Assembly (NCBI RefSeq): GCF_035982055.1
Contig: NZ_CP108427.1
Span: 9,981,001-10,045,000 of the forward strand
Direction: 5' to 3'
Source of the DNA: Streptomyces sp. NBC_01288
GTDB lineage: Bacteria > Actinomycetota > Actinomycetes > Streptomycetales > Streptomycetaceae
Length of the DNA: 64,000 bases
Within the stretch, counting starts at the first letter, position 1, and each line of letters opens with the position of its first letter. The notes below the pieces were generated by a model, which searched no databases, was not told where the DNA came from, and saw only the letters and a list, made by a program, of their open reading frames with translations. The position numbers and the translations under genes were made by a program. This document shows, piece after piece, positions 2,884 to 25,290 of this stretch.

Positions 2884-4770
2884 ATGAGCCCTGGTCATGC
2901 CCATTCGTCGAAGCGGACGAGGATCGTCATCCTGGTGGCCGTCGTCGTCGCGGCCCTCGTCACCGGCCTCGCGCTGCTGCCCGACACGTTCTCGGCGGAC
3001 GCCGACGCGAGCGCGAGCGTCACGAAGGTGTCCACCAGTCCCACCGCGAGTGGTGACGTGGGCAAGAACCTACCGGTCACCCGACCGAAGATCTCCTGCA
3101 CCGACCTGCTGCGGAAGGACTTCGGCACGCTCGACGACGCGGCGACCTCCGTCGCCTCCGCGAGCGTGGTGGCCAAGAGCGGCTCGAACGCGTACGAGTA
3201 CTGCGACGTCAAGGGCACCGTCGCCCCGCAGATCCAGTACGAACTGCGGCTGCCGACCAAGACGTACCGGCAGCGCTACCTCCAGGAGGGCTGCGGCGGC
3301 TACTGCGGCATGGTCGGCGTCAGCGCCCAGCCCGCCGCCTCCACCGGCTGCGCCCCCGTCACCGACGGCTCCTTCGCCCTCGGCCAGGACAACCAGGGCC
3401 ACGTCTCCACCTCCGGCACGGGCGGCGGCTCCGCCGAGGTCTGGGCGACGAACCCCCAGCTCAAGGTGGACTTCGGCTACCGATCCGAGCACGCCTTCGC
3501 GACCGCCGCCAAGGCGATCACCAAGGCGTTCTACGGCGCCGAGCCGACGTACTCCTACTACGACGGCTGCTCGGACGGCGGTCGCGAGACGCTGATGGAG
3601 GTGCAGCGCTACCCCCGCGACTTCAGTGCCGCCCTGGTCGGCGCCCCGGCCTTCAACCAGACCGCGCTCAACGCGATGCAGGAGGCCTACCTCTCCACGA
3701 TCGACTTCCGCGCGGACGGCTCGACGATCCTGCCCGCCTCGAAGCTCGGCACGCTGCACAAGGCCGTCATGGCGAAGTGCGCCGACCCCAAGTTGAACAA
3801 CGACCTCATCCAGGACCCGGCGACCTGCACCTTCGACCCGGCGAGCCTCAAGTGCGCCGACAACAAAGACACTTCGAGCTGTCTCACCTCCGAACAGGTC
3901 GACGTCGTACGCAAGGCCTACGCGGGTGCGACCGCTCCGGACGGCACCCATCTCTACACGGGTGGCCAGCCCTACGGTTCCGAGGCCGCCTGGGAGGGGC
4001 TGTTCATCCCCAGGGCCGGCCAGGGGCAGAGTTCGGTGCAGCTGTACGGGATCGGGCTCGGATTCCTGCGCTGGGTCGGGAAGTGGGAGGCCGATCCCAC
4101 GCTGAGGCTCGACGCGTCCCTGTTCACCGTAGACACCTTCAAGGCCTACCAGCGCGAGGTCTCCGGGATCTACGACGCCACCGACCCCGACCTCACCAAG
4201 TTCCATGAGGCGGGCGGCAAGTTGATCCAGTGGCACGGGCTGACCGACCCCAACATCCCGCCCACCGGCACCCGCGCCTACCGCCAGGCCGTGATCGACA
4301 CCATGGGACAGGACAAGGCCGACGACTTCTACCGCCTGTATCTGTTCCCCGGCGTCAACCACTGCGGAGGCGGTGACGGGCCCGACAGCTTCGACCTGCT
4401 GAGCCGGCTGATCTCCTGGCGGGAGACCGGCAGGACCCCCGGCGCCGTCATCGCGTCCAAGACCAGCGGCGGCGACGAGCCCGGGGGACCGGCGGGCGGT
4501 CGGCTCGGAGGGGGAGGTGCGAAGGCTTCCGCGAGTGCCGACAGCACCGCGCCCACCGTCGAGTACACGCGGCCCGTCTACCCGTACCCGCAACTCGTCG
4601 CCTACGACGGCTCGGGCGACAAGAAGGACGCGGCCAACTACCGCGCCTACACGCCCGACAAGCTGCCCGACGACCACTACAAGTGGGCCGGCTCCTTCAC
4701 CTCGGGCTACCAGGAGTGGTGCGAGACGAAGGACGACAAGTCGATGAGCTGCGGCCGGCACGAGCCGTAG
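2884..4770 (+). CDS. Tannase/feruloyl esterase family protein, secreted or membrane-anchored
   Basis: The family hydrolyses ester bonds of gallate or hydroxycinnamate esters (tannase, feruloyl esterase, MHETase). This 628-residue protein has a positively charged start and one hydrophobic segment (about 12-34), so it is exported or anchored outside the cell. The Cys-Ser-Asp-His-Cys catalytic arrangement of the family is visible: GCSDGG (Ser about 230), HGLTDPNIPP (Asp about 455) and GVNHCGGG (His about 493), the two neighbouring Cys normally being disulfide-linked. The ATG used is the one directly before the charged/hydrophobic leader; upstream in-frame codons lie inside lysR. It sits next to a GntR/galBCD-like operon, so release of gallate from gallotannins is the favoured role. 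Feruloyl or other aryl ester substrates remain possible. Confidence 0.88.
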   Translation: MSPGHAHSSKRTRIVILVAVVVAALVTGLALLPDTFSADADASASVTKVSTSPTASGDVGKNLPVTRPKISCTDLLRKDFGTLDDAATSVASASVVAKSGSNAYEYCDVKGTVAPQIQYELRLPTKTYRQRYLQEGCGGYCGMVGVSAQPAASTGCAPVTDGSFALGQDNQGHVSTSGTGGGSAEVWATNPQLKVDFGYRSEHAFATAAKAITKAFYGAEPTYSYYDGCSDGGRETLMEVQRYPRDFSAALVGAPAFNQTALNAMQEAYLSTIDFRADGSTILPASKLGTLHKAVMAKCADPKLNNDLIQDPATCTFDPASLKCADNKDTSSCLTSEQVDVVRKAYAGATAPDGTHLYTGGQPYGSEAAWEGLFIPRAGQGQSSVQLYGIGLGFLRWVGKWEADPTLRLDASLFTVDTFKAYQREVSGIYDATDPDLTKFHEAGGKLIQWHGLTDPNIPPTGTRAYRQAVIDTMGQDKADDFYRLYLFPGVNHCGGGDGPDSFDLLSRLISWRETGRTPGAVIASKTSGGDEPGGPAGGRLGGGGAKASASADSTAPTVEYTRPVYPYPQLVAYDGSGDKKDAANYRAYTPDKLPDDHYKWAGSFTSGYQEWCETKDDKSMSCGRHEP

Positions 4771-4802
4771 GCAAGCATGAGAAGGTCGTAGAAATACGCT
4801 GT

Positions 4803-4841
4803 CCACTGCCCGTCCATGGCCGGTCCATGGGCGGGCAGTGG
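4803..4841. terminator. Long hairpin after the tannase gene
   Basis: A 17-bp stem (CCACTGCCCGTCCATGG against CCATGGGCGGGCAGTGG, one T/G position that is a G-U pair in RNA) closes a 5-base loop, 33 bases after the tannase stop. There is no T-run, as is usual for Streptomyces terminators. It separates the tannase transcript from the gntR promoter. Confidence 0.7.
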
Positions 4842-4880
4842 CGTGTCTGCGGTAAGTATGGGCGGAAGCATGCGTGCAAT

Positions 4881-4926
4881 ACGGCGGACAAAATTGTTGA
4901 CAATCTTGTTTGGCTAGATTTAGGTT
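4881..4926 (+). promoter_or_regulatory. gntR promoter with tandem 12-bp operator
   Basis: A -35 TTGACA (4897-4902) and a -10 TAGGTT (4921-4926) are 18 bases apart. The -35 lies inside ATTGTTGACAAT (4893-4904), a palindrome with 5-bp arms ATTGT/ACAAT typical of FCD-type GntR operators. The preceding 12 bases (ACGGCGGACAAA) look like a weaker copy. The same layout occurs before the MFS gene and the esterase gene, so this is the likely autoregulatory site of the GntR protein. Confidence 0.7.
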
Positions 4927-4955
4927 CGACAGGCACTCACTCAGGGAGGGCAACG

Positions 4956-5606
4956 ATGCCGAAAGAAGCCCGTCCGAGCACCGGGGAGCAGGCCAAGCAG
5001 CATGCGCTCACGCAGCTGCGGCAGGCGATCCTGCAGGGCGACATGGCACCGGCGCAGCGGTTGGTGGAGAACGAACTCGCCGAGCAGTTCGATGTGACGC
5101 GGGCCAGCATCCGGGCGGCGCTGATCGATCTGGCGGCCGAGGGGCTGGTGGAGCGGATCCGCAACCGGGGTTCCCGGGTGCGGGTGGTGACCGTGGAGGA
5201 AGCGGTCGCCATCACCGAGTGCCGCATGGTCCTGGAGGGACTGTGCGCGGCCAAGGCGGCCGTCGCGGCCAGCGACGAGCAGCTGACCGAACTGACGGAT
5301 CTGGGCCGGGCCATGACCAAGGCCGTGGCCGACGGCGAGCCGGTGACCTACTCCGAGCTCAACAGCGAACTCCACTACAAGGTACGGGAGTTCTCCGGCC
5401 AGCAGACGGCCGTGGCCCTGCTGGAGCGGCTCAACGCCCAACTGGTGCGTCACCGCTTCCAGTTGGCGCTGCGACCGGGGCGTCCGCAGCAGTCCCTGAG
5501 TCAGCATCTGGCGATGATCGAGGCGATCACGGCCAGGGACCCCCAGGCGGCCGAGGCGGCCGTCCGCGCCCATCTCACCAGTGTGATCGAGGCGTTGCGC
5601 GACTGA
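4956..5606 (+). CDS. GntR-family (FCD) transcriptional regulator
   Basis: A 216-residue regulator: an N-terminal winged helix (about residues 15-80, with ALTQLRQAILQGDMAPAQRL and the recognition helix in FDVTRASIRAAL) and a C-terminal all-helical FCD ligand domain whose metal/ligand region includes NSELHYKV and HLAMIEAI. FCD proteins usually repress catabolic operons and are released by the substrate or an intermediate. The ATG after GGGAGGG was chosen. It is the first gene of the galB-galC-galD-like operon, and its probable operator is repeated before the transporter and a distant esterase. Gallate or an oxalomesaconate-pathway intermediate is the likely inducer (inference). Confidence 0.92.
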   Translation: MPKEARPSTGEQAKQHALTQLRQAILQGDMAPAQRLVENELAEQFDVTRASIRAALIDLAAEGLVERIRNRGSRVRVVTVEEAVAITECRMVLEGLCAAKAAVAASDEQLTELTDLGRAMTKAVADGEPVTYSELNSELHYKVREFSGQQTAVALLERLNAQLVRHRFQLALRPGRPQQSLSQHLAMIEAITARDPQAAEAAVRAHLTSVIEALRD

Positions 5607-5667
5607 CGCGCGGCGCAGCGGCACACCGGGGGCGGGCGCACACCTGTCCATCAAGGAGATTCGAGTC

Positions 5668-6417
5668 ATGACGCACGGCAACGCGCCCGCCACCCCACGA
5701 TCGACACTCGTCGTCACGGCGCATGCCGGGGACTTCGTCTGGCGGGCGGGCGGAGCCATCGCCCTGTCCGCCGCCCGCGGCGAGAAGGTCACCATCGCCT
5801 GTCTGACCTTCGGCGAGCGCGGTGAGTCCGCGAAGGCCTGGCGCGAGGGCAAGAAGCTGGACGAGATCAAGGCGATACGCCGGGACGAGGCCGAGCGTGC
5901 CGCGGCCGCCCTCGGCGCCGAGGTCCGTTTCTTCGACGCGGGCGACTATCCCCTGGTCGCCACCGCCGAGTTGACCGACAAGCTCGTCGAGGTCTACCGG
6001 GCCACGCAGCCCGACGTCGTGCTCACCCACCCCACCGAGGACCCGTACAACGGCGACCACCCGGCCGCCAACCGGATGGCGCTGGAGGCCCGCGTCCTCG
6101 CGCAGGCCATCGGCTATCCCGGCGAGGGCGAGATCATCGGCGCCCCGCCGGTCTTCTACTTCGAGCCGCACCAGCCCGAGATGAGCGGCTTCAAGCCCGA
6201 GGTCCTCCTCGACATCACCGAGGTCTGGGACACCAAGCGCAAGGCGATGGAGTGCCTCGGCGCCCAGCAGCACCTGTGGGACTACTACACCGACCTGGCC
6301 GTACGCCGAGGCGTCCAGCTCAAGCGCAACGCCGGCCCGAACCTGGGCCTCGCCCACAAGACGATGGCCGAGGCGTTCATGCGCCCGTACCCGCAGATCG
6401 CGAAGGAGCTGGCATAA
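5668..6417 (+). CDS. galB: PIG-L-family hydratase, likely 4-oxalomesaconate hydratase
   Basis: In Pseudomonas putida GalB, a PIG-L-fold Zn enzyme, hydrates 4-oxalomesaconate to 4-carboxy-4-hydroxy-2-oxoadipate (CHA). This 249-residue protein has the PIG-L fold, but the deacetylase motif AHPDDE is replaced by AHAGDFVWRAGGAIAL, the form I recall for GalB-type hydratases rather than sugar deacetylases. FGERGESAKAWREGKKLDEI and HPTEDPYNGDHPAANR (the second metal-binding block) follow. A good ribosome site (AAGGAG) precedes the ATG. It lies between gntR and the aldolase and tautomerase genes of the same pathway, which is the strongest argument for the function. Confidence 0.83.
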   Translation: MTHGNAPATPRSTLVVTAHAGDFVWRAGGAIALSAARGEKVTIACLTFGERGESAKAWREGKKLDEIKAIRRDEAERAAAALGAEVRFFDAGDYPLVATAELTDKLVEVYRATQPDVVLTHPTEDPYNGDHPAANRMALEARVLAQAIGYPGEGEIIGAPPVFYFEPHQPEMSGFKPEVLLDITEVWDTKRKAMECLGAQQHLWDYYTDLAVRRGVQLKRNAGPNLGLAHKTMAEAFMRPYPQIAKELA

Positions 6418-6419
6418 CC

Positions 6420-7124
6420 ATGGGCGGCGTGATCGTCACCAACCCCCCGAAGGCGGACGCGAAGGACGTCGAGGCGCTGGCCGCCTTCGGCGTGGCCACC
6501 GTCAGCGAGGCCATGGGGCGTACGGGCCTGCTCGGGCCGTCGATTCGCCCTGTCCAGCAGGGAGTTCGGGTCGCGGGCACCGCCGTGACCGTGCTCAGCT
6601 GGCCCGGCGACAACCTCATGATCCACGCGGCCGTCGAGCAGTGCGGCGAGGGCGACATCCTGGTCGTCACCACCACCTCCCCGTGCACGGACGGCCTGTT
6701 CGGCGAGCTCTTCGCCACCGCGCTCCAGAAGCGCGGGGTGCGCGGAGTCGTCCTCAACACCGGCATCCGCGACACCCAGGAACTGCGCGACATGGGCTTC
6801 GCCGCCTGGTCCCGCGCCGTCTCCTCCCAGGGCACCGTCAAGGCCACCGGCGGCTCGGTCAACGTGCCCATCGCCATCGACGGCCAGGTCGTCCGCCCCG
6901 GTGACGTGATCGTCGCCGACGACGACGGCGTGGTGGTCGTCCCGCGCGAGAAGGCACGCGAGACCGCCGAGAGGTCCGAGGCCCGCGAGGCCAAGGAGGC
7001 CGCCACTCGCGCCGCCTTCCTGGCGGGCCAACTCGGCCTGGACCGCTACGGATTGCGCGACACCCTCAAGCGACTCGGCGTCGAGTACCAGTCGTACGAG
7101 GAGTACACCGGAGCCGGGTCGTGA
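6420..7124 (+). CDS. galC: RraA-like 4-carboxy-4-hydroxy-2-oxoadipate (CHA) aldolase
   Basis: CHA aldolases (GalC, LigK) are divalent-metal class II pyruvate aldolases of the RraA fold that split CHA into pyruvate and oxaloacetate. The 234-residue length fits. Visible features are the SEAMGRTG segment near the N-terminus, the GDILVV strand, and the GIRDTQELRDMGF motif whose Arg-Asp pair binds pyruvate and metal, followed by VRPGDVIVADDDGVVVVP. The ATG is 2 bases after the galB stop; a longer in-frame start inside galB is unlikely. The stop overlaps the GTG of the next gene. HMG aldolase activity is a known side activity of the family. Confidence 0.87.
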   Translation: MGGVIVTNPPKADAKDVEALAAFGVATVSEAMGRTGLLGPSIRPVQQGVRVAGTAVTVLSWPGDNLMIHAAVEQCGEGDILVVTTTSPCTDGLFGELFATALQKRGVRGVVLNTGIRDTQELRDMGFAAWSRAVSSQGTVKATGGSVNVPIAIDGQVVRPGDVIVADDDGVVVVPREKARETAERSEAREAKEAATRAAFLAGQLGLDRYGLRDTLKRLGVEYQSYEEYTGAGS

Positions 7125-8269
7125 CAGGGCCCTCGGAGGTCCGCTGCATGCTGATGCGCGGCGGCACCTCCAAGGGCGCCTACTTCCTGGCCGAGGACCT
7201 CCCCGCCGACCCGGCCGAACGCGACGACCTGCTGCTGCGCGTCATGGGCAGCCCCGACCCGCGCCAGATCGACGGCCTGGGCGGCGCCCACCCGCTCACC
7301 AGCAAGGTCGGCGTGGTCTCCGCCTCGACCGACCCCGAGGCCGACGTCGACTACCTGTTCCTGCAAGTCGCCGTCGACCGCCCTGAGGTGACGGACCGTC
7401 AGAACTGCGGCAACATTCTCGCCGGAATAGGCCCGTTCGCCGTGGAGCGGGGGCTCGTGGCCCCCGATGACGGCGAGACCTCCGTCCGCATCCGGATGCT
7501 CAACACCGGGGAACTGGCGATCGCCAGCTTCCCGACTCCGGGCGGGCGGGTCGACTACACCGGCACCGCGGAGATCTCCGGCGTCCCCGGCACCGCGGCA
7601 CCGGTGGTGATCGAATTCCCGCAGGGCGCGAACCCGCTGCTGCCGACCGGCCGTGTCCGCGACGTGATCGCCGGCACCGAGGTGACATGCGTCGACAACG
7701 GCATGCCGGTCGTCCTGATCCCGGCCGCCGCACTGGACGTCACGGGGTACGAGACGCCCGCCGACCTGGAGGAGAACGCCACTCTCGCCGCCCGCCTACG
7801 GGAGATCCGCCTGGCCGCCGGAAAGCTGATGGGCCTCGGTGACGTCGAGCACACCACGATCCCCAAGCTCAGCCTGCTCGCACCGCCCGCGGACGGCGGC
7901 GCGGTGATGACCCGCACCTTCATCCCGGTGCGCTGCCACACCTCCATCGGTGTCCTGGGCGCCGCGAGCGTGGCGGCGGGGCTCCTTGTCCCCGGCGGGG
8001 TGGGGGAGGGCATCGCGGAGGTACCCGCACAAAGTGACCGAATTCGCATCGAGCATCCCAGCGGATTCCTAGACATCGAAACTAGCGTGGACGCCGGATC
8101 CGCGGGCTCCGCTCCCGTGGTCCGCAGAACCGCGGTCGTCCGCACCGCACGCAAGATCTTCGACGGCACGGTCTTCCCCCGGCCCGCCGACATCGAACCG
8201 ACCGACACCGCTCCGACTCCCGCACCCGCACGCCCCCTTGGAGGCAACGATGGCTCCGCCGCTCGGTGA
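7121..8269 (+). CDS. galD: PrpF/GalD-family tautomerase, likely 4-oxalomesaconate tautomerase
   Basis: GalD converts the enol/keto forms and double-bond isomers of 4-oxalomesaconate so that GalB can hydrate it. The 382-residue protein belongs to the PrpF family (two diaminopimelate-epimerase-like halves). It begins with RCMLMRGGTSKGAYFLAEDL, the family N-terminus, and contains NCGNILAGIGPFAVERGL and, in the second half, RCHTSIGVLGAASVAAG. The GTG start overlaps the aldolase stop (GTGA). Its end overlaps the start of the dioxygenase gene by 20 bases, indicating tight translational coupling. Other PrpF members act on aconitate; the neighbours decide here. Confidence 0.86.
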   Translation: MTGPSEVRCMLMRGGTSKGAYFLAEDLPADPAERDDLLLRVMGSPDPRQIDGLGGAHPLTSKVGVVSASTDPEADVDYLFLQVAVDRPEVTDRQNCGNILAGIGPFAVERGLVAPDDGETSVRIRMLNTGELAIASFPTPGGRVDYTGTAEISGVPGTAAPVVIEFPQGANPLLPTGRVRDVIAGTEVTCVDNGMPVVLIPAAALDVTGYETPADLEENATLAARLREIRLAAGKLMGLGDVEHTTIPKLSLLAPPADGGAVMTRTFIPVRCHTSIGVLGAASVAAGLLVPGGVGEGIAEVPAQSDRIRIEHPSGFLDIETSVDAGSAGSAPVVRRTAVVRTARKIFDGTVFPRPADIEPTDTAPTPAPARPLGGNDGSAAR

Positions 8270-9200
8270 CATCGCCCATATCGGCCACGCCCAGCTCTTC
8301 ACCCCGGACCTGGACGCCAGTGTCGCCTTCTTCACCGACTACCTGGGCCTCACCGTGAACGGCCAGGACGGCGACACCGTCCACCTCCGGACCTACGACG
8401 ACTACGAGCACCACAGCCTGGTCCTCACCGCCCGCGAACAGCCCGGCCTCGGCCGGCTCGCCCTGCGCACCTCCAGCGAGGAGGCCCTCCAGCGCCGTAT
8501 CAAGGCGATCGAGGAGGCGGGCGGCACCGGCAGGTGGGTCGAGGACGAGCCCGGCCTCGGCAAGCTCTACGTCACCACCGACCCGGACGGCCACGAGCAC
8601 GCCCTGTACTGGGAGAGCGAGTACTACCAGGCCCCCGACGAGCTGAAGCCCGCACTGAAGAACCAGCCACAGGCCAAGCCCAACAAGGGCGTCGGCGTAC
8701 GGCGGTTGGACCACATCAACTTCCTTGCCGCGGACGTGCTTTCGAGCGCCGAGTTCCAGCAACAGGTGCTGGGCGCAAGGCCGACGGAGCAGATCCGGCT
8801 CAACAGCGGGCGGATCGCGGCGCGTTGGCTGACGTACACGAACAAGTCGTACGACGTCGTCTACACCGAGGACTGGACCGGTTCGACCGGCCGGCTGCAC
8901 CACATCGCCTTCGCGACCGACACCCGCGAGGACATCCTGCGCGCGGCCGATCTCGCCATCGACACCGGTGTGTTCATCGAGACGGGCCCGCACAAGCACG
9001 CCATCCAGCAGACGTTCTTCCTCTACGTCTACGAGCCCGGCGGCAACCGTATCGAGCTGTGCAACCCGCTCACACGGCTCGTCCTGGCGCCCGACTGGCC
9101 GCTGATCACCTGGACCGAGGAGGAGCGGAAGAAGGGGCAGGCCTGGGGCCTGAAGACCATCGAGTCCTTCCATACGCACGGGACTCCGCCGGTCGGCTGA
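8250..9200 (+). CDS. Type I extradiol (catechol 2,3-dioxygenase-like) ring-cleavage enzyme
   Basis: A 316-residue two-domain VOC-fold dioxygenase. The iron ligands line up with those of catechol 2,3-dioxygenase (XylE H153/H214/E265): His155 (RLDHINF), His218 (RLHHIAF), Glu269 (NRIELCN). His250 and Tyr259 correspond to the catalytic His and Tyr before the last ligand. The ATG after GGAGG was used, inside the end of galD. As the only ring-opening enzyme in an operon whose other products process 4-oxalomesaconate, it is inferred to cleave gallate or a close trihydroxybenzoate at the 4,5 position. Known gallate dioxygenases (GalA, DesB) are of the unrelated LigB family, so the substrate needs testing. 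Protocatechuate is the main alternative. Confidence 0.87.
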   Translation: MAPPLGDIAHIGHAQLFTPDLDASVAFFTDYLGLTVNGQDGDTVHLRTYDDYEHHSLVLTAREQPGLGRLALRTSSEEALQRRIKAIEEAGGTGRWVEDEPGLGKLYVTTDPDGHEHALYWESEYYQAPDELKPALKNQPQAKPNKGVGVRRLDHINFLAADVLSSAEFQQQVLGARPTEQIRLNSGRIAARWLTYTNKSYDVVYTEDWTGSTGRLHHIAFATDTREDILRAADLAIDTGVFIETGPHKHAIQQTFFLYVYEPGGNRIELCNPLTRLVLAPDWPLITWTEEERKKGQAWGLKTIESFHTHGTPPVG

Positions 9201-9262
9201 GCGGTGCGCGGAAGCCACTGAGCGGTGCGCGCGAGAGCCGTCCTCCCTGGATTGTCGATGAG

Positions 9263-9308
9263 ATTGTTGACAAAAACGTTGACTATCCAGCGGGTGGCTC
9301 TTTAGCGT
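9263..9308 (+). promoter_or_regulatory. MFS transporter promoter with tandem 12-bp operator
   Basis: Two adjacent 12-bp units, ATTGTTGACAAA (9263-9274) and AACGTTGACTAT (9275-9286), match the gntR operator; the second supplies a -35 TTGACT (9279-9284). A -10 TAGCGT (9303-9308) follows at 18 bases, the same spacing as at gntR. This indicates control of the transporter by the GntR protein, separately from the gal genes upstream. Confidence 0.7.
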
Positions 9309-9339
9309 CTAGCGCACCAAGTACGAGAGGTAACCAACG

Positions 9340-10683
9340 ATGTCTTCCTCCCCCTCGCCGTCCCCCGCGCCCGCCCTGTCCGCGCGCGTCAGCAGGCTGG
9401 CCCTCCTGGTCGTCGGTCTGTGCTGGCTGGCCGTTCTCTTCGACGGCCTCGACATGTTCATCTACGGCTCGGTGCTGCCGCACCTGCTGGAGACGAAGAC
9501 CTTCGGTCTCACCGCGGACAAGGCCGGTGACCTTGGCAGCTACGCCACCTTCGGCATGCTGGTGGGCGCTCTCACCGCGGGTACGGTCGCGGACCGGATC
9601 GGCCGCAAGCAGCTGATGATCGGCTGCGTGACGCTCTTCTCGCTCGCCTCCGCCATCTGTGCGGTCTCGGGCAGCGTCGAGGTCTTCGGCCTCGGCCGCA
9701 CCCTCGCCGGTGTCGGCCTCGGCGGTCTGCTGCCGACCGCGATCAGCATGGTCTCCGACTACGCCCCGCGCGGCCGGACCGCCCTCACCATCGGCATGCT
9801 GATGACCGCCCACCACGCCGGCGGCATCCTCTCCGCCTATGTGGCCAAGTGGCTGGTGGAGCCGGTCGGTTGGCGCGCCGCCTTCTGGGTCTGCGTCCTC
9901 CCGCTGCTCTTCGTCCCGGTGCTCCTGAAGTTCCTGCCCGAGTCGCTGAGCTTCCTCGTCGCCAAGGGCCGCACCGACGAGGCCCACGCCCTCGCCGAAC
10001 GCTTCGAGGTCCAACTGCCCGCAGCGGCGGGCAAGAAGACGGCGGCCGATCGCTGGGACGCCCTGCTCGCCCTCTTCCGCGGCGGCGAACGGCTCCAGAC
10101 CCTGCTGTACTGGCTGGCCTCCTTCGGTGGCCTGCTCCTCGTCTACGGCGTCGCCACCTGGCTGCCCACCCTGATGCGCGCCGAGGGCTACGAACTGGCC
10201 AACGCCCTCACGTTCGTGGTCGTGTTCAACCTCGGCGGCATCGTGGGCATGCTCGTCGCCGGCCGCGCCGCCGACCGCTTCGGCGCCCCGCGCATCTCGG
10301 CGATCTGGTTCGCGCTCACCGCCGTCGGCGTCTTCCTGCTCGGTGTCCACATGAACCAGGCCGTCACGATGCTGGTCGTCTTCCTCACCGGCGTCTTCCT
10401 CAACAGCGCCCAGACGATGATCTACGCGACGGTCTCCATCCGGTCCACTCCGGACAACCGCGCCACCGCGGTCGGTTGGACCTCCGGCATGGGCCGCTTC
10501 GGCGCGGTCTTCGGCCCGTGGCTCGGCGGCCAGCTCCTCGCCTCGGGCAACGGCGACTGGGGTTTCACGTCCTTCGCGATCGCCGGTCTGTCGTCGATGG
10601 TGTTCATCGGCATCGCGGCGCTGCGCAGCTCGAAGCAGGGCGAACAGGCCAACGCCCCGCAGGAGCTGGTCGGTTCGCACTGA
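9340..10683 (+). CDS. MFS aromatic-acid:H+ symporter (AAHS type), likely gallate uptake
   Basis: A 447-residue major facilitator protein with about twelve membrane spans. The first span carries LFDGLDMFIYGSVLPHL, the DGxD signature of the aromatic acid:H+ symporter family (PcaK, GalT, VanK), and the cytoplasmic loop GTVADRIGRKQL follows span 2. It imports aromatic carboxylates by proton symport in the cytoplasmic membrane. The ATG is preceded by AGAGG. It has its own promoter carrying the GntR-type operator and lies directly after the ring-cleavage gene, so gallate or protocatechuate uptake is inferred. Confidence 0.88.
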   Translation: MSSSPSPSPAPALSARVSRLALLVVGLCWLAVLFDGLDMFIYGSVLPHLLETKTFGLTADKAGDLGSYATFGMLVGALTAGTVADRIGRKQLMIGCVTLFSLASAICAVSGSVEVFGLGRTLAGVGLGGLLPTAISMVSDYAPRGRTALTIGMLMTAHHAGGILSAYVAKWLVEPVGWRAAFWVCVLPLLFVPVLLKFLPESLSFLVAKGRTDEAHALAERFEVQLPAAAGKKTAADRWDALLALFRGGERLQTLLYWLASFGGLLLVYGVATWLPTLMRAEGYELANALTFVVVFNLGGIVGMLVAGRAADRFGAPRISAIWFALTAVGVFLLGVHMNQAVTMLVVFLTGVFLNSAQTMIYATVSIRSTPDNRATAVGWTSGMGRFGAVFGPWLGGQLLASGNGDWGFTSFAIAGLSSMVFIGIAALRSSKQGEQANAPQELVGSH

Positions 10684-12027: not shown

Positions 12028-12630
12028 ATGAGGCTCCCCGTTCTCACCGAAGAGGAAATGGACCCGCGCCAGCAGGAACTGGCCGCCCGCATCGCCGGCC
12101 GGCGCGGCGGAGTCCGCGGTCCCTTCCGGGTCTGGCTGCACAGCCCGGAGATGTGCGAAAGGGCCGAATCCCTCGGCGCCTTCGCCCGGTTCGACTCCAG
12201 CCTCCCCAGGCACCTGAGCGAACTCACGCTGCTGATGGCCGCCCGCAACTGGGACGCGCAGTACTCCTGGAACGCCCATGTGCACCAGGCGATCGAGGCC
12301 GGCATCCCGGAGGCCGCCGTCAAGGCCATCGCCGAGAAGCGCGAGGCCGTCTTCGACAACGAGGCGGACCAGGCCTTCTACCGGTTCTGCCGCGAGATCC
12401 TCGACGAGCACTTCGTCACCGACGAGACCTTCGCCGCCGCACTGGAACACTTCGGCTCCAAGGGCCTGGTCGACACCATCGGCGCACTCGGCAACTTCAC
12501 CATGCTCGGCATGTGCCTGAACACCTTCCAGGTGGACCTCCAGGCCGACAGGGAACCCCCGTTCCCGGACATCCGCGGCTACGGCCGTGTCGCCCCGGAC
12601 GGCGCCGACGGCACCGAGTCACGGCCGTGA
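12028..12630 (+). CDS. Carboxymuconolactone decarboxylase (AhpD-like) family protein
   Basis: A 200-residue helical CMD-fold protein. The core segment LMAARNWDAQYSWNAHVHQA matches the family's substrate/proton-relay helix; the AhpD CxxC is absent, so peroxidase activity is unlikely. Members act as lactone decarboxylases or of unknown role in aromatic catabolism. The ATG follows AAGGCAGGTAAAGG. Its stop overlaps the GTG of the ABC ATPase gene (GTGA), so it is the first gene of the transporter operon, an unusual pairing that suggests the imported compound is also processed by this protein. Confidence 0.8.
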   Translation: MRLPVLTEEEMDPRQQELAARIAGRRGGVRGPFRVWLHSPEMCERAESLGAFARFDSSLPRHLSELTLLMAARNWDAQYSWNAHVHQAIEAGIPEAAVKAIAEKREAVFDNEADQAFYRFCREILDEHFVTDETFAAALEHFGSKGLVDTIGALGNFTMLGMCLNTFQVDLQADREPPFPDIRGYGRVAPDGADGTESRP

Positions 12631-14129
12631 CAACTCCGGGGGGAGGCGCGGTACTTCGCGTCCGGGGGGTCACCAAGAGCTTCGGTGGCGCTGCCGCGCT
12701 CAAGGGCGTGGACCTCGACCTGTACCCGGGCGAGGTCCACGCGCTGATGGGCATGAACGGCGCCGGCAAGTCGACGCTGGTGCAGGTCCTTTCGGGGGTT
12801 CATCAGGCCGACGCGGGCACCGTCGAGGTCAACGGGCGGGCGCAGCACGGACTTACGGTCCGCAAGGCACGCCGGCTCGGTATCGCGTCGGTGCCACAGC
12901 GCCGGGAGCTGGCAATGGGGCTCACCGTCGCCGAGAACGTGATGCTCGGCGACCTGCCGACGCGCGGCGGTGCCGTGCGCTGGAAGGCGGTCGACTCCGA
13001 GGCCCGCAAGGCCTTGGAGGGGCTCGGCATCGACATCGACGTGACACGGACCGCGGGGTCGCTCACCGTCGCCGAACAGACCATGGTCGAGGTGGCCCGC
13101 GAGGTCCGCCGCGGCGGCCGCATCCTCGTCCTCGACGAACCGACCGCCTGTCTGAGCGCCGAAGCGGCGCACCAGATAAGGGAGTTGGTCCGCACCCTGC
13201 GCGACGAGGGCGTCTCCGTCGTCTACATCTCGCACTACATCGACGAGGTGCTGGCCGTCGCCGACCGGGTCACGGTGCTGCGGGACGGAGCGGTCGTCCG
13301 CAGCGCCCCGGCCGCCGAGTTCGACGCCGCCGGTCTCGTCCGCAGCATGGTCGGCCGCGATGTCGTGTCGCAGCGATCTCAACGGCCCGCTCCCAAGGAC
13401 GAGATCGGGCTCACGGTACGCGGGCTCACCGACGGCCGGGCCGTACGGGACTTCACCGTCGAGGTGCGCAAGGGCGAGATCGTCGCCGTGCTCGGACCCG
13501 CCGGGGACGCGCAGTCGCGCCTCTTCGACCTGCTCTCCGGGCGCCGCCGTCCCGACACCGGCCGACTCGCGGTGGACGGAACTCCGGTGCCGTTCGGCCG
13601 AGTTCACGCCTCCCTCTCCAGTGGTCTGCGCTGCGTCACCGGCGACCGCCGTGCGCTGGGCCTGGTCCCGGAGCTGTCCCTGGACGAGAACCTGATGCTG
13701 GCCGGCGACCGCTTCGCCCGCCGTCGGACGCACCGACGGGCCCAACTCGCCCGCCGGGCAGCCCCGTTGCGCCGCAGCTACGGAGTGGTCGCGCTCGCCG
13801 GGAACCCGCCGGTGGGCGCGCTGTCCGGGGGCAACCAGCAGAAGGTGCTGCTCGCCAAGTGGCTCCAGACCGAGCCGGTCGCCTGCTTCCTGGAGGACCC
13901 CACCAACGGGGTCGACATCGCGGCCATGGCCGACATCCACGCCCTCGTCGACGACCTCGCCTCGCGCGGTGTCGCCGTACTCCTCGCCTCCTCGTCCGCC
14001 GAGGAGGTCATGCGCCTCGCCGACCGGGTCGTCGTCGTCAGCGCCGGCCGGACGGTCGCCGAGCACGACATCGACGCCATCACCCACGACGAACTCGTCG
14101 CCACCGCTCTCGGAGGTCAACCGCAGTGA
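12627..14129 (+). CDS. Sugar-type ABC importer ATPase (RbsA/MglA family)
   Basis: A 500-residue fusion of two nucleotide-binding domains, the format of ribose/galactose-type importers. Domain 1 has Walker A GMNGAGKST, a signature at LTVAEQTMVEVARE and Walker B ILVLDEPT. Domain 2 has a degenerate Walker A (GPAGDAQSRL, no Lys), an intact signature LSGGNQQKV and EDPTNGVDI as Walker B, as usual for this family. It powers the permease encoded next, with 4-nt overlaps at both ends. Context suggests an aromatic or plant-derived solute rather than a sugar; the sequence alone cannot tell. Confidence 0.92.
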   Translation: MTTPGGGAVLRVRGVTKSFGGAAALKGVDLDLYPGEVHALMGMNGAGKSTLVQVLSGVHQADAGTVEVNGRAQHGLTVRKARRLGIASVPQRRELAMGLTVAENVMLGDLPTRGGAVRWKAVDSEARKALEGLGIDIDVTRTAGSLTVAEQTMVEVAREVRRGGRILVLDEPTACLSAEAAHQIRELVRTLRDEGVSVVYISHYIDEVLAVADRVTVLRDGAVVRSAPAAEFDAAGLVRSMVGRDVVSQRSQRPAPKDEIGLTVRGLTDGRAVRDFTVEVRKGEIVAVLGPAGDAQSRLFDLLSGRRRPDTGRLAVDGTPVPFGRVHASLSSGLRCVTGDRRALGLVPELSLDENLMLAGDRFARRRTHRRAQLARRAAPLRRSYGVVALAGNPPVGALSGGNQQKVLLAKWLQTEPVACFLEDPTNGVDIAAMADIHALVDDLASRGVAVLLASSSAEEVMRLADRVVVVSAGRTVAEHDIDAITHDELVATALGGQPQ

Positions 14130-15139
14130 GCGTCAAGACACTTCCCGAAGCCCCCGGCGTCGACGACCCACCCGGGAAAGCCCGTTCCCGCTTCTCGCCG
14201 GCGGCCTTGCGCGGGGCCCCGCACACCGGGCTGATCGCCGTCCTGATCGTCGTGATCGTGGCCACCTCGATGCGGACCGACTCGTTCGCCACCGACACGA
14301 ACGTCATCAACATCCTGCGCCAGGTCAGCGTCGTCGCCGTGATCGCGGCGGGACTCACGCTGCTGATGACCGCGGGCGGCATGGACTTCTCGATGGGCAG
14401 CAACGTCGCCGTGACGACCGCGGTCGGGGCGCAGTTGCTGGCCCACGGCCACTCCACCGCGTTCACCGTCGTCGTCTCACTCGTACTGGCCACGCTGATC
14501 GGTCTGGTCAACGGGGTGGTCGTGACGTTCACGAACGTCGCCCCCTTCGTCGCGACCCTGGCGACGGCCACCCTGCTGGACGGCGTCGCCCTGCTCGTGC
14601 TCGACAGCGTCAGCGTCTCCATCGGCACCAAGATGTTCGCCCTCGGCAACAACAAGATCCTCGGGGTGCCGTACCTGCTGGTCGTGGCGATCCTCGTGCT
14701 GGTGGCGACCGCCCTGGTCATGCGGTTCACCGTGTTCGGCCGCGACGCCTTCGCCATCGGCGGCAACGAGCACGTCGCCCGGCTCAGCGGCATCAATGTC
14801 ACCGCCCGCAAGCTCTCGCTCTACGCCCTCACCGGCGCCCTGTCCGGCCTCGCGGGCCTGATGCTGCTGTCCCGGCTCAGCGGCAGCAGCCCCGGCACCG
14901 GCGGACTCTCCCTCCAGCTCCAGGCCGTCGCGGCGGTCGTCATCGGCGGCACCGCCCTGGCCGGCGGCCACGGCACGGTCGTAGGCACCGCGCTCGGTGT
15001 GGTCCTCCTCGGCGTGGTCGCCAACGCGCTGAACCTGCTCCAGGTCTCCAGCAACTACCAGTCGGTCTCCGTCGGCGCGGTGCTGCTCATCGCGGCCGTC
15101 GCCAACGAGATGCACAAGGCACGTTCCGCACGGCATTGA
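14126..15139 (+). CDS. ABC importer permease (RbsC-like, BPD_transp_2)
   Basis: A 337-residue integral membrane protein with eight or more hydrophobic spans after a roughly 30-residue cytoplasmic leader. The GGMDFSMGSNVAV segment near the third span and AIGGNEHVARLSGINV in the cytoplasmic coupling loop are typical of RbsC-type permeases, followed by AVVIGGTALAGGHGTV. It probably forms a homodimeric channel with the two-domain ATPase encoded just upstream (GTGA overlap). The third component, a binding lipoprotein, follows after 51 bases. Confidence 0.92.
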   Translation: MSVKTLPEAPGVDDPPGKARSRFSPAALRGAPHTGLIAVLIVVIVATSMRTDSFATDTNVINILRQVSVVAVIAAGLTLLMTAGGMDFSMGSNVAVTTAVGAQLLAHGHSTAFTVVVSLVLATLIGLVNGVVVTFTNVAPFVATLATATLLDGVALLVLDSVSVSIGTKMFALGNNKILGVPYLLVVAILVLVATALVMRFTVFGRDAFAIGGNEHVARLSGINVTARKLSLYALTGALSGLAGLMLLSRLSGSSPGTGGLSLQLQAVAAVVIGGTALAGGHGTVVGTALGVVLLGVVANALNLLQVSSNYQSVSVGAVLLIAAVANEMHKARSARH

Positions 15140-15190
15140 CCGGCTCTACTCACTCCCTCCTTTCGCTCCCTCCTTGAATGGCGGTTCACC

Positions 15191-16141
15191 ATGAGAATCT
15201 CGTTCCGTTCCCGCAGAGCCATGCTCGCCGCGTTCGCCGGCACCACTCTCGTACTGAGCGGTTGCGGCACGAGCGACGACAGCGGCAGTTCCGGCGATGT
15301 CACCCTCGGGTTCGTCAACGGCGGCGACACCGAGTTCCACAGCTGTCTCCAGAAAGCGGTCGAGCAGGAGGCGAAGACGGAGAACGCCAAGGTCTTCACC
15401 GCCAACTCGCACCAGAATTCCACCACCGAGCTGTCCAACATCGAGGACATGACCTCGCGCAACGTGAGCGCGCTGATCGTGCAGACGGTCAACGTGGACG
15501 CGCTGAAGGGCGACATCGCCAAGGCGAAGGCCGCGGACATACCGATCTATCTGACCTCCGTTGCCACCAGCGACGTGAACGACATCCTCGGCGCGGCCGT
15601 CGTGGACCTCACGAAGGTCGGCGCCCTGGACGCGGGCTGGGTCGCGACCGACGCGGGCGGCAAGAGCGTCGAGGTCGGCGTCATCGCGGGTGCGCCCGGC
15701 GCCGCCTCCGACCTCCTCGTGGGCGGTTTCACCAAGGCGCTGCCCAGCACCGCGAAGGTGGTCGCGAACCAGCCGGGCATGTTCAACCCGGTGAAGGCGC
15801 AGGACGTCGCGGAGAACATGATCCAGGCGCATCCGAACCTGGAGTACGCGTTCGTCGCCTCCGAGGACATGGCGCTGGCCGCCCGCAAGGCGTTCGACGC
15901 GGCCGGCAAGAAGGACGTGAAGATCGTGACCGTCAACGGCACGGACGAGGGCCTGGCCGCCGTCAAGGACGGACGGCTCTCCGCCACCGTGGCCAACTCG
16001 GCCATGGCGATCGGACAGACCGCCGTGAAGAACGCGGTCGGTCTGCTGGCCGAGAAAAAGGTTGACAAAATTGCCAACATTCCTCTTTTGTTGGTGACCA
16101 AGGACAACCTGAGCAAGGCCCCCCAGTACTGCCCGAAGTAA
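15191..16141 (+). CDS. ABC importer solute-binding lipoprotein (Peripla_BP_4 type)
   Basis: A 316-residue binding protein with a twin-charged leader, hydrophobic stretch and lipobox VLSGC (Cys about 25), so it is lipid-anchored on the outer face of the membrane. The remainder is a two-lobed ribose-binding-like fold (VTLGFVNGGDTEF at the first strand; NVSALIVQTVN; hinge region near the C-terminus). It delivers solute to the permease encoded upstream. The last 60 bases are noticeably AT-rich (GTTGACAAAATTGCCAAC), unlike the rest. A strong hairpin follows the stop. Confidence 0.9.
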   Translation: MRISFRSRRAMLAAFAGTTLVLSGCGTSDDSGSSGDVTLGFVNGGDTEFHSCLQKAVEQEAKTENAKVFTANSHQNSTTELSNIEDMTSRNVSALIVQTVNVDALKGDIAKAKAADIPIYLTSVATSDVNDILGAAVVDLTKVGALDAGWVATDAGGKSVEVGVIAGAPGAASDLLVGGFTKALPSTAKVVANQPGMFNPVKAQDVAENMIQAHPNLEYAFVASEDMALAARKAFDAAGKKDVKIVTVNGTDEGLAAVKDGRLSATVANSAMAIGQTAVKNAVGLLAEKKVDKIANIPLLLVTKDNLSKAPQYCPK

Positions 16142-16149
16142 CGAGCACC

Positions 16150-16177
16150 GCTCGAAGCGACGAGCACCGCTTCGAGC
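16150..16177. terminator. Hairpin ending the ABC importer operon
   Basis: A perfect 10-bp stem GCTCGAAGCG/CGCTTCGAGC with an 8-base loop begins 8 bases after the binding-protein stop. No T-run follows. A transcription end here would separate the importer operon from the LysR gene. Confidence 0.7.
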
Positions 16178-16359
16178 AGCGGAGTCCGGTGCCGGGAGCG
16201 ACACCTGTCTCATTGTTGTCCGAGCCGCCTGTCCGCCACATCGCCGGAATGTCCAAGTGGAGCCGCCACCAGGACACCCCGGCAGGGGTCGGACCCATCA
16301 GTACGACCGGCACCGCCGCCGGGGCCCACCCCTGGCACACGTGGGCCTCCGGAGGAATC

Positions 16360-17271
16360 ATGGATCGACTGCTCCTCATGCACAGCTTCGTCACCGTCGC
16401 GCAGGCCGGCAGCTTCAGCGGCGCGGCGAAGAAGCTGGGCTCGTCGGGCTCGCTGGTGTCGCGCCACGTCGCCGAGCTGGAACGACAGGTGGGCGTCCGC
16501 CTGGTCAACCGCACCGCCCGCTCGGTCAGCCTCACCGAACCGGGGCTGAAGTACGCCGAGTTCGCGGCCCGCATCCTCGACGAGATAGAGGCCGAGGACG
16601 CTGTCATCTCGCACCTCCACGACCGCGCCGAGGGCACCCTGAGCATCATCTGCCCGAAGTGGATAGGCAGCCTGGACCTCGGGGACGCGATCGCCGCCTT
16701 CTCCGCCGCCCACCCCAAGATCCACGTCCGCTTCGAGCTCGGCGGTATGTCGGACCGTACGTACGACTTCCTGGACAGCGGCTTCGACGTCGCCTTCCAC
16801 ACCCGCGACCTGCGCGACTCCAGCGTCCGCCTCAAGAAGATCGCCTCACTGCCCTTCGTCCTCTGCGCCGCCGAGAAGTACCTGGAGCGCGGCGGCCCCC
16901 TCACCGAGCCCAACGGCCTCGCCCACCACGACTGCCTCGTCCACGTCAACGACCCGGTCTGGCGCATCGGCCACGGCCACGCCTCCACCCTGCACAAGAT
17001 CCGCAACATCGCCTTCTCGTCGAACTCGTACATCGCCCTCCAGAAGGCCGCCGTCCACGGCCGCGGCATCGCCCTGCTGCCCCAGCGTCCCGCCTACGAC
17101 GACCTGATGACCGGCGCCCTCCAGGTCCTGCTCCCCGAGCTGGCGGTCCCCGACCGCCCCCTGTTCGCGATCTACGGCCCCGGCCAGGCCACCCCGCGCA
17201 AGGTCAGCGTGTTCCTGGACTTCCTCGCCGAATGGTTCTCGCAGAATCCCATTCCGGCCATCGAGTCGTAG
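16360..17271 (+). CDS. LysR-family transcriptional regulator
   Basis: A 303-residue LysR protein; the N-terminal HTH is clear (FVTVAQAGSFSGAAKKLGSS, then GSLVSRHVAELE) and the effector domain is full length. The ATG follows GGAGGA at ideal spacing. It is encoded upstream of, and in the same direction as, the second meta-cleavage gene set. A perfect palindrome CGCAA-N7-TTGCG lies 2 bases after its stop, in front of the dioxygenase gene, and related elements precede three other units, so it is the best candidate regulator of this catabolic region. Confidence 0.93.
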   Translation: MDRLLLMHSFVTVAQAGSFSGAAKKLGSSGSLVSRHVAELERQVGVRLVNRTARSVSLTEPGLKYAEFAARILDEIEAEDAVISHLHDRAEGTLSIICPKWIGSLDLGDAIAAFSAAHPKIHVRFELGGMSDRTYDFLDSGFDVAFHTRDLRDSSVRLKKIASLPFVLCAAEKYLERGGPLTEPNGLAHHDCLVHVNDPVWRIGHGHASTLHKIRNIAFSSNSYIALQKAAVHGRGIALLPQRPAYDDLMTGALQVLLPELAVPDRPLFAIYGPGQATPRKVSVFLDFLAEWFSQNPIPAIES

Positions 17272-17272
17272 C

Positions 17273-17289
17273 CGCAAGAAACGATTGCG
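17273..17289. promoter_or_regulatory. CGCAA-N7-TTGCG palindrome before the extradiol dioxygenase operon
   Basis: Perfect 5-bp arms with a 7-base spacer (CGCAAGAAACGATTGCG), 80 bases upstream of the dioxygenase ATG, in a LysR-type position. A -10-like TAGGCT is at 17335-17340. The same palindrome with other spacer bases occurs at 26569-26585. Confidence 0.55.
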
Positions 17290-17369
17290 AATTCAGACGA
17301 GCCCGGACCATTGAGGCCTTCACGCCCCGAAATCTAGGCTCGCCGGGCGACCCGCGAAACGAGGCATCC

Positions 17370-18290
17370 ATGGGAATCCAGAGAATCGAATCCGTCACCT
17401 ACGGGATCGACGACGTAGACGAATGTGTCCGTTTCTTCGGCGACTTCGGGCTGTTCCTGCTGGAACGGACCGAGGAGCACGCGGTCTTCGAGACCCTCAC
17501 CGGGCAGACCCTCCACCTGGACACCGTGCCCGGCCCCCTGCTGCCGCCGCCGGTGGAGGCAGGCCCGACCATCCGTGAGGTGGTCTGGGGCGTCGACACC
17601 CCGGAGGAACTCGCCCGCCTGGTCGCCGAGTTGGGCCGCGATCGCAAGGTCCACGCGAGCGCCGACGGCGTCCACCACACCGTCGACGAGAGCGGCTTCG
17701 GCGTCGGACTCACCCTGGCCCGCCCGAAGAACGCGGACGTCACCCCGCGCCCCGCCAACGCGCTGGGCAGCGTGGCCCGTTGGAACACCGCCCTGGACCC
17801 GCTCACCCGGGCGTTCCCGCTGCGCATGTGCCATGTCGCGCTGAACATCGTCAAGGCCGGGCGAGAGGAAGCCGTCGCGTTCTACACCGAGCGGCTCGGC
17901 TTCCGGCCCACCGACATCGTCGAACCGATGGGCGTCTTCATGCAGGCACCGGGCGACGACGACCAGCACACCATGCTGCTCTGCCACCGCCCCGACCGCG
18001 CCGGCGTCAACCACATCGCCTACGAGGTCCCCGGCTTCGACGACGTCATCGAGGGCGGCAACCACATGATCGAGCGCGGCTGGCGGGAGGCCCGCAAGCT
18101 CGGCCGCCACACCGTCGGTTCGAACGTCTTCCGCTTCCTGCACGCCCCGTGCGGCGGCCGCGTCGAGTACGCGGCGGACATGGACCGCGTCGACGACACC
18201 TACGAGACCCGCGTCCACGAGACCACCCCGCCGCACCACATCTGGGCGCTGCGCTCCAACCGCGACCAGCAGGACGCCCCCGCCACCTGA
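17370..18290 (+). CDS. VOC-family extradiol ring-cleavage dioxygenase
   Basis: A 306-residue two-domain vicinal-oxygen-chelate protein. A full iron triad can be assigned in the C-terminal domain: His155 (MCHVALN), His215 (VNHIAYE) and Glu266 (GRVEYAADMD), at nearly the spacing of catechol 2,3-dioxygenase. The N-terminal domain is a degenerate repeat. This supports true extradiol activity on a catechol-type substrate. Downstream genes supply aldehyde dehydrogenase, FAH-family and alpha/beta-hydrolase functions expected for a meta-cleavage product. Ring substrate unknown. Confidence 0.82.
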   Translation: MGIQRIESVTYGIDDVDECVRFFGDFGLFLLERTEEHAVFETLTGQTLHLDTVPGPLLPPPVEAGPTIREVVWGVDTPEELARLVAELGRDRKVHASADGVHHTVDESGFGVGLTLARPKNADVTPRPANALGSVARWNTALDPLTRAFPLRMCHVALNIVKAGREEAVAFYTERLGFRPTDIVEPMGVFMQAPGDDDQHTMLLCHRPDRAGVNHIAYEVPGFDDVIEGGNHMIERGWREARKLGRHTVGSNVFRFLHAPCGGRVEYAADMDRVDDTYETRVHETTPPHHIWALRSNRDQQDAPAT

Positions 18291-18322
18291 CTCTCCTCCC
18301 CAGCCTGAGAGGGCACCCACTC

Positions 18323-19771: not shown

Positions 19772-19777
19772 ACCGCC

Positions 19778-20548: not shown

Positions 20549-20916
20549 GCAGCGCACCCCGCTACATCCACCACGTCAACTTCCCCACCACCGACCCCGA
20601 CCGCACCGCCGAGTGGTACACGAAGGTCTTCGGGATGAAGCGCATCATGCCCAAGTCCAACACCCGTGTGGTGCTGATGACCCGAGGCAACTTCGACCTC
20701 CACTTCACCCCGGTCGAGGAGATGGAGCGCATGGCGCCCTATCACTTCGCCGTCGAGGTCGACGACTGGGACGACTTCCTCGCCCACCTCAAGGAGCTGG
20801 GCATCCGGCACACCCGGCCGATCGAACGGCCCGAGAACCAGTCGAAGTTCTGCTACATCCACGACCCCGACCACACCATGATCGAGCTCGTCTTCCACGG
20901 CCGCCGCCCCAACTAG
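20545..20916 (+). CDS. Small VOC-family protein
   Basis: A 123-residue single-repeat VOC protein with possible metal-binding residues at HHVNF (N-terminus), HFAVEV (middle) and DHTMIELVF (C-terminus). Single-repeat VOC proteins act as dimers in glyoxalase, isomerase or dioxygenase reactions. It overlaps the FAH gene by ATGA, so it is made with the meta-pathway enzymes. A precise function cannot be given. Confidence 0.8.
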   Translation: MSSAPRYIHHVNFPTTDPDRTAEWYTKVFGMKRIMPKSNTRVVLMTRGNFDLHFTPVEEMERMAPYHFAVEVDDWDDFLAHLKELGIRHTRPIERPENQSKFCYIHDPDHTMIELVFHGRRPN

Positions 20917-20942
20917 CCACCCGCGTACAGGAGTTCACCCCC

Positions 20943-22201: not shown

Positions 22202-22204
22202 CCC

Positions 22205-23233: not shown

Positions 23234-23240
23234 CGCACGG

Positions 23241-23270: not shown

Positions 23271-23279
23271 AAGGCTCCC

Positions 23280-25285: not shown

Positions 25286-25290
25286 GCAAG

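Follow-up and report, generated by a model that had tools for sequence, protein, structure and literature searches.

How is the aromatic ring of gallate, a constituent of plant tannins, opened in a bacterium that carries the genes for the rest of the gallate pathway and in whose genome no LigB-type gallate dioxygenase was found? The question is raised by an operon of the soil bacterium Streptomyces sp. NBC_01288, which we have analysed within a stretch of 64,000 nucleotides (the window; positions 9981001–10045000 of a 10.56 Mb one-contig genome, 99.97% complete). The operon has the order GntR-galB-galC-galD-VOC-transporter, where VOC is a type I extradiol dioxygenase gene; galB through to the VOC gene are tightly packed and a tannase-family gene lies upstream. 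All seven genes match the families assigned to them in a preliminary description of the locus (Table 1). The same description proposed that the VOC protein is a gallate 4,5-dioxygenase that has replaced the LigB type, and our analysis supports this: judged from its context, the protein is likely to be a type I gallate 4,5-dioxygenase displacing the LigB-type enzymes GalA and DesB. We infer gallate as the substrate from the pathway partners, the lack of any other route found, the exchange with GalA in one operon slot and the linkage to galBCD across phyla, and a histidine-to-tyrosine change throughout the clade adds to the case.

Table 1 Genes of the gal locus of Streptomyces sp. NBC_01288 (positions in the window)
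Feature	Position	Strand	Matches and remarks
Tannase/feruloyl-esterase family esterase	2884–4770	+	PF07519, 344 bits; hydrophobic N-terminal stretch
GntR/FCD-type regulator	4956–5606	+	PF00392 and PF07729
galB, 4-oxalomesaconate hydratase (PIG-L fold)	5668–6417	+	PF02585; 5cgz, 272 bits
galC/ligK, 4-carboxy-4-hydroxy-2-oxoadipate aldolase	6420–7124	+	NF006731, 329 bits (cut-off 179)
galD, 4-oxalomesaconate tautomerase	7121–8269	+	NF033377, 501 bits (cut-off 440)
VOC (type I) extradiol dioxygenase, proposed gallate 4,5-dioxygenase	8250–9200	+	PF00903, TIGR03211
MFS aromatic acid/H+ symporter, proposed gallate uptake	9340–10683	+	TIGR00895, 294 bits (below cut-off 418.55)

The proposed reaction, gallate to 4-oxalomesaconate, is that of GalA from Pseudomonas putida and DesB from Sphingobium SYK-6, which are LigB-type (type II) enzymes with GalB, GalC and GalD as partners; their fold and metal site are unrelated to those of the VOC protein. 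The known gallate dioxygenases are described as type II enzymes of the LigB superfamily (PMC4250580, PMC3962378), where AromaDeg also places them (PMC4250580). In DesB the N-terminal part is LigB-like and the C-terminal part LigA-like, and Glu377' of the latter touches the third hydroxyl of the substrate (PMC3962378). The VOC protein is without such a C-terminal domain and in Pfam matches neither the LigB fold nor the LigA-like domain. In the established pathway the cleavage of gallate feeds GalD, GalB and GalC directly (PMC12314914). The trio of tautomerase, hydratase and aldolase is found together here, galC and galD scoring above their model cut-offs and galB being identified through its best solved match, the 4-oxalomesaconate hydratase 5cgz, which includes the AHxxDFVWRAGG segment. 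The sequence AHAGDFVWRAGG, which had been thought unusual for a GalB, is not so, as the solved GalB reads AHSADFVWRAGG. On the narrower model TIGR02798, GalC scores 291 bits, below the cut-off of 304.5, and galD is the only match in the genome at E ≤ 0.001.

A LigB-type gallate dioxygenase elsewhere in the genome, a possibility raised in the preliminary description, was not found. The whole 10.56 Mb yields no LigA domain (PF07746) at E ≤ 1, and the gallate-dioxygenase model NF009904 (cut-off 412 bits) gives nothing at E ≤ 1e-30 with 5 of 10 candidates scored. Three LigB-fold (PF02900) proteins are encoded at 524106, 5955148 and 10430768; two of them reach 99 and 62 bits on NF009904 and the third is unlisted for that model. 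They are not GalA-like. For those at 524106 and 10430768 the best-scoring assignment is 3-carboxyethylcatechol dioxygenase, of the MhpB type (165 and 197 bits, under the cut-offs), and each adjoins what reads as an alpha/beta hydrolase; that at 5955148 has its match to a DOPA-dioxygenase model (174 bits, short of the cut-off of 233). The statement that LigC, LigI and LigAB homologues are lacking also held, in that tblastn found none of them in the window, and neither a LigA domain nor an orthologue of LigC or LigI turned up when the whole genome was searched, the best matches being 26% identical over 237 residues (77 bits) for LigC and 29% identical for LigI. The LigC and LigI queries are plasmid-encoded proteins of Novosphingobium KA1 and Azospirillum TSH58, annotated only as Gfo/Idh/MocA and amidohydrolase family members and lying beside LigA and LigB; the same queries have matches of 74% and 65–67% identity in two other actinomycetes. 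An amidohydrolase in the window (26663–27523, PF04909), considered as a LigI, is not matched by the LigI query and was rejected on that ground. Since no LigC or LigI orthologue was found, the semialdehyde that would arise from protocatechuate has no recognised path to GalD, GalB and GalC in this genome.

ATG 8250, rather than TTG 8238, is the most likely start of the VOC gene, since a GGAGG at 8240–8244 ends 5 bases ahead of that ATG; the first 20 bases of the gene coincide with the last 20 of galD. With this start, the numbering given earlier for the ligands, H155, H218 and E269, holds in the alignment. PF00903 is matched in two stretches, corresponding to two glyoxalase-type domains, and the 2-His-1-Glu metal site is kept in all 131 aligned rows (duplicates included). 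In the type I enzyme HPCD (1f1x), H155, H214 and E267 together with Tyr257 align with H155, H218, E269 and Tyr259 of the VOC protein. The catalytic acid–base residue of HPCD, His200, corresponds to Tyr201, which has the same spacing from the conserved Trp193 as in HPCD, and Arg243 and Arg293, which we take to be the carboxylate-binding residues of HPCD, correspond to Thr245 and Gly296. Thus, the second-sphere acid–base histidine of type I extradiol dioxygenases is replaced here by Tyr201; because that histidine marks the characterised enzymes and not the fold, membership of the VOC superfamily rests on the domains and the metal site. PDB titles include HPCD variants in which His200 is changed to Q, N, E or C, with no Tyr variant among the 50 entries shown in the fold list (below).

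The tyrosine is a feature of a whole clade. In a tree of 41 rows, 34 that we call the gal clade split from the seven others with support of 95/88, and the residue at the HPCD His200 column is Tyr in 34 of 34 clade rows and His in 7 of 7 others; over all 131 rows, duplicates included, there are 125 Tyr and 6 His. K199 is likewise invariant in the clade (34/34) and is found among the seven others in L140 only, R293 and Q297 are fixed throughout the clade but in no row outside it, and H308 is common to one other. Within the clade the Actinomycetota rows form one group (98/99) and the Pseudomonadota rows group with Thermus oshimai at 89/87. The closest solved chain to the VOC protein, PDB 9wgj (323 residues, 371 bits), lies at the base of the clade on a long branch with weak placement (83/65) and has the same Tyr; a literature search found no paper on it. 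HPCD and L140 also have long branches. AphC of Rhodococcus jostii RHA1 (7q2a, solved with 4-ethylcatechol; 234 bits) belongs to the same VOC family and has the same metal ligands but has the catalytic His where the gal clade has Tyr, and falls outside the clade.

The VOC protein has 569 relatives, of which the loci of the 80 best (79 titled Streptomyces and one "Actinobacteria bacterium") were compared. In these, tblastn within 8 kb, counting genes in line with VOC, located GntR in 79, GalB in 75, GalC in 78, GalD in 79 and the MFS transporter in 64 loci, and LigA, LigB, LigC, LigI and LigJ queries in none. The locus without GntR, GalB, GalC and GalD (L060) is cut by a contig end just before VOC. 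For five relatives outside the clade (L108, L139, L140, L141 and L145; 38–44% identity), galB, galC or galD was found in none of the 6–9 kb flanks; L108, a close relative of AphC, has no gal genes within about 9 kb, and two Thermus thermophilus loci, also outside the clade, have dmpG.

The survey of actinomycetes was one draw of 296 Actinomycetes genomes, with VOC, galD and GalA searched throughout and the LigA domain and GalB in part; in many genomes only some of the first-look candidates were scored (e.g. 7 of 21, 5 of 10), so that misses are possible. VOC was found at E ≤ 1e-60 in 15 genomes, including 10 of the 28 of the same genus. One match, in G139, is a 39% relative of the AphC type with His and lies outside the clade, leaving 14 clade genomes. 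A strong GalD is present in 21 genomes (20 above the cut-off and G204 at 438 bits). In 13 of the 14 clade genomes VOC lies within 200 bases of a strong galD, and in the fourteenth, G295, it is beside galC and a LigJ hydratase. galD is thus present in 13 of 14 clade genomes against 8 of 282 others (Fisher p 1.7e-16, only a guide because genomes share ancestry). LigA domains show the reverse, with 1 of 14 VOC genomes (G209, on other contigs) against 7 of 8 galD genomes without VOC (Fisher p 3.5e-4). As had been anticipated, actinomycete gal operons with VOC recur among the surveyed genomes, and no LigB-type GalA was found in them.

Eight galD genomes are without VOC. Two of them, G111 and G152, have galBCD with a fused LigB-type GalA (754 and 763 bits) and are the only genomes of the 296 with a GalA above the cut-off of 412, although 11 match at E ≤ 1e-30; no genome was seen with both a clade VOC and a GalA above cut-off. 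In G111 the order is galB-galC-galD-galA, placing GalA in the slot held by VOC in Streptomyces, and in G152 galA-galD are in line with galC and galB divergent. In G027 and G288, galC is accompanied by LigA, B, C, I and J; G199 keeps GntR-galC-galD and has LigAB on another contig in another setting, and in G131, G250 and G252 galD is in other settings. In G199, where VOC is missing, we note that an FAD oxidase with the start MADETIGIVGAG follows galD (L179, 7304–8503).

The association extends beyond Actinomycetes. A plasmid collection gave 81 records at E ≤ 1e-40, many of them near-copies, from which 21 VOC-match regions (17 clade, 4 outside) were picked by eye for variety rather than at random. 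galC and galD occur within the 8 kb flanks in 11 of the 17 clade loci, in several gene orders; these are Roseibium, Pantoea piersonii, two Agrobacterium tumefaciens, Agrobacterium vitis, two Rhizobium, two Thioclava, a Paracoccaceae strain and the actinomycete Nonomuraea. The order is galB-VOC-galC-galD in most rhizobia and Thioclava, VOC-galB-galC-galD in Roseibium and galB-galC-galD-VOC in Nonomuraea; in Pantoea VOC adjoins an aromatic-acid symporter and is divergent from galBCD, and in Agrobacterium L133 galC-galD precede VOC with LigJ- and LigI-like genes nearby. Recurring across Streptomyces, other Actinomycetes and Pseudomonadota, the operon is more than a chance assembly. Relatives of the VOC protein were not found in a scan of viral_contigs. 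By contrast, a galD region that was reached independently of the VOC query, that of Azospirillum TSH58, has LigA and LigB beside galBCD. At L104, L106 and L124, where no GalB was found, a LigJ-type hydratase (62–67% to the KA1 protein) is beside VOC; with LigJ in place of GalB, the pathway shows a second swap between unrelated enzymes.

We can outline how the operon might work. Gallate would be imported by the MFS symporter, and the VOC enzyme would bind Fe(II) (or Mn(II)) through H155, H218 and E269, chelate two neighbouring hydroxyls of gallate and cleave C4–C5 next to the third hydroxyl. The predicted product of this single step is an acid, 4-oxalomesaconate, so that neither the LigC dehydrogenase nor the LigI pyrone hydrolase would be needed; GalD would tautomerise the product, GalB hydrate it and GalC split it to pyruvate and oxaloacetate, with the operon presumably regulated by GntR. 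In all extradiol dioxygenases a catalytic base is described next to the axial hydroxyl (PMC3962378). Tyr201, or the third hydroxyl of gallate itself, may take over the role of the missing histidine. On balance, we favour a convergent family of VOC-fold gallate 4,5-dioxygenases in Actinomycetota and Pseudomonadota, perhaps also Deinococcota, in which His could give way to Tyr since the third hydroxyl or the Tyr transfers the proton. The comparison suggests that nature found the chemistry of gallate ring opening twice.

Several observations weigh against gallate as the substrate. An extradiol enzyme of whatever kind would not be expected to have lost its catalytic His. The solved clade member 9wgj was named "Catechol 1,2-dioxygenase" by its depositors, and the VOC protein itself exceeds the cut-off of the NCBI catechol 2,3-dioxygenase model (TIGR03211, 324.3 against 320.2). 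The structure prediction was poor (alignment of 32 close sequences, mean pLDDT 53), and for this reason pocket residues are left unmapped; the fold list obtained from this model, with AphC near the top and C23O, BphC and HPCD, served as a name check only, and its 50 entries shown do not include 9wgj. GalB is missing in four uncut Streptomyces loci (L033, L079, L084 and L085), of which L079 is also without GalC, and was not found in genome G123 (L115) at E ≤ 1e-20. G209 has both VOC and LigAB-type genes, with 309 bits on the gallate-dioxygenase model. Among the plasmid loci, those of Thermus oshimai, Methylobacterium and Roseomonas gilardii include GalC/LigK while their flanks show no galD, and tblastn and annotation place none of galB, galC and galD in the flanks of 3 of the 17 (L135, L142 and L144). 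LigI-like genes are near VOC in Roseomonas (L123, L144) and in Agrobacterium L133, and at about 3025–8975 of the two Roseomonas loci LigI-like, LigA-like, LigB-like and clade VOC genes stand in one stretch, both types of dioxygenase side by side. The Roseomonas setting suits a mixed syringate metabolism and that of Thermus suits protocatechuate.

The tannase-family gene, too, carries less weight than the preliminary description gave it: as proof of the substrate it is weakened, being rarely linked to VOC and belonging to a mixed family. Of the 80 close loci, tblastn found a tannase near VOC in two, in line in one and divergent in the other, and PF07519 also includes feruloyl esterases. The tannase gene is thus an optional and not a fixed part of the operon. 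The esterase is probably exported, and its nearest solved chains are feruloyl esterase B-2 and MHETase. In NBC_01288 it may release gallate from tannins; other Streptomyces would probably obtain gallate elsewhere, for example by syringate demethylation. In a walnut Agrobacterium pAt plasmid a tannase-family gene directly follows galD, an independent pairing of another tannase with the VOC clade.

Could the VOC protein instead be a type I protocatechuate 4,5-dioxygenase, or one acting on both protocatechuate and gallate, with unrelated enzymes performing the LigC and LigI steps? The Thermus oshimai clade member (WP_018461912.1; 54% identity) speaks for this, having GalB and LigK homologues, DUF6282, a DUF1932 dehydrogenase and a 4-hydroxybenzoate 3-monooxygenase with no galD in the flank, and DUF1932 dehydrogenases are annotated beside many alphaproteobacterial loci. 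In all, DUF1932 or an NAD(P)-dependent oxidoreductase is annotated beside L123, L124, L126, L127, L128, L129, L134, L136, L137, L143 and L144, all outside Streptomyces, and Pfam confirmed DUF1932 in L123, L126 and L128. Gallate is, moreover, also cleaved by a type II protocatechuate 4,5-dioxygenase (PMC8431788). In NBC_01288, however, the searches for LigC and LigI gave no orthologue, Pfam detects no DUF1932 in the seven operon proteins (the part of the genome covered for it), a protocatechuate 3,4-dioxygenase is encoded elsewhere (beta subunit pcaH at 1478102, 348 bits on the pcaH model), and galD is adjacent in 79 of the 80 close loci. We therefore regard cleavage of protocatechuate as unlikely.

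A second possibility is that the VOC enzyme cleaves 3-O-methylgallate, derived from syringate, and that an unlinked esterase hydrolyses the methyl ester or pyrone product to 4-oxalomesaconate. galBCD serve the cleavage of 3-O-methylgallate too in Pseudomonas sp. NGC7 (PMC12314914), and syringate demethylation is reported for a Streptomyces VanAB (cited in PMC12481942). Against this, no pyrone hydrolase or evident methylesterase is found among the seven operon genes, unless the tannase-family protein acts as one, and the LigI query reaches only 29% identity in the genome, which makes this route quite improbable. Least convincing is an ordinary catechol 2,3-dioxygenase placed by chance in a gal operon while an unrecognised enzyme cleaves gallate: a TIGR03211 score barely above cut-off and the depositors' name for 9wgj speak for it, but it is very improbable in view of the way the gene keeps company with galBCD across many genomes and in several orders, the separation of the clade from outside relatives, the His-to-Tyr change, and TIGR03211 scores of 379 for a relative in a catechol pathway and, in five clade mates, of 332 and 355 for two above the cut-off (L126, L123) and 297 each for three below it (L128, L125, L105). 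The neighbours of the VOC gene are, indeed, galBCD and not genes of catechol meta-cleavage such as dmpG or those of the hydroxymuconic semialdehyde enzymes.

A further enzyme to compare is BLC23O of Bacillus ligniniphilus, a VOC-type catechol 2,3-dioxygenase likened to our protein by description only. One report has the phenolic signal dropping by 14% over 6 h when BLC23O is given gallic acid (PMC9925492); activity was not seen on protocatechuate or pyrogallol in a second paper (PMC8671467), and the accessible parts of these papers mention no gal operon. A search of the open literature found no report of a VOC-type gallate dioxygenase, which is weak evidence of absence as most subscription journals lie outside it. 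We have here a known fold and a known pathway in a new combination, with an altered catalytic residue. If the gallate 4,5-dioxygenase assignment is right, Actinomycetes would open gallate more often with the VOC type than with a LigB-type GalA (14 of 296 genomes against 2 with a GalA above cut-off), and one operon slot would clearly have undergone non-orthologous replacement. The assignment would also account for the possible use of gallate without GalA by many actinomycetes and by plant-associated plasmids, and would correct the label "catechol 2,3-dioxygenase" that many clade records carry. The His-to-Tyr change poses the question of whether extradiol cleavage of a trihydroxy substrate needs a protein base at all. 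Practical uses could lie in lignin and tannin funnelling and in biosensors.

Some further features of these loci may be recorded. The Streptomyces loci L033, L079, L084, L085 and L115 are gal operons without galB. On the Thermus oshimai plasmid pTHEOS01 (L126, 7965–14364) the clade VOC gene occurs with GntR, DUF6282, PIG-L, LigK and DUF1932 genes beside the 4-hydroxybenzoate 3-monooxygenase, possibly a type I protocatechuate 4,5-pathway in which DUF6282 and DUF1932 would be candidates for the missing steps. The window itself contains a second catabolic-looking cluster (12028–30347) on the same strand as the gal operon and separate from it. It comprises another VOC protein (17370–18290), two aldehyde dehydrogenases, an FAA hydrolase, an alpha/beta hydrolase, an FAD oxidase, an amidohydrolase, a TPP enzyme and a malate/ureidoglycolate-type dehydrogenase, together with a sugar-type ABC transporter and a LysR regulator, the last two by reading. 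Its DAO-family FAD oxidase (25333–26541) is, by eye, a look-alike of the oxidase that follows galD in G199.

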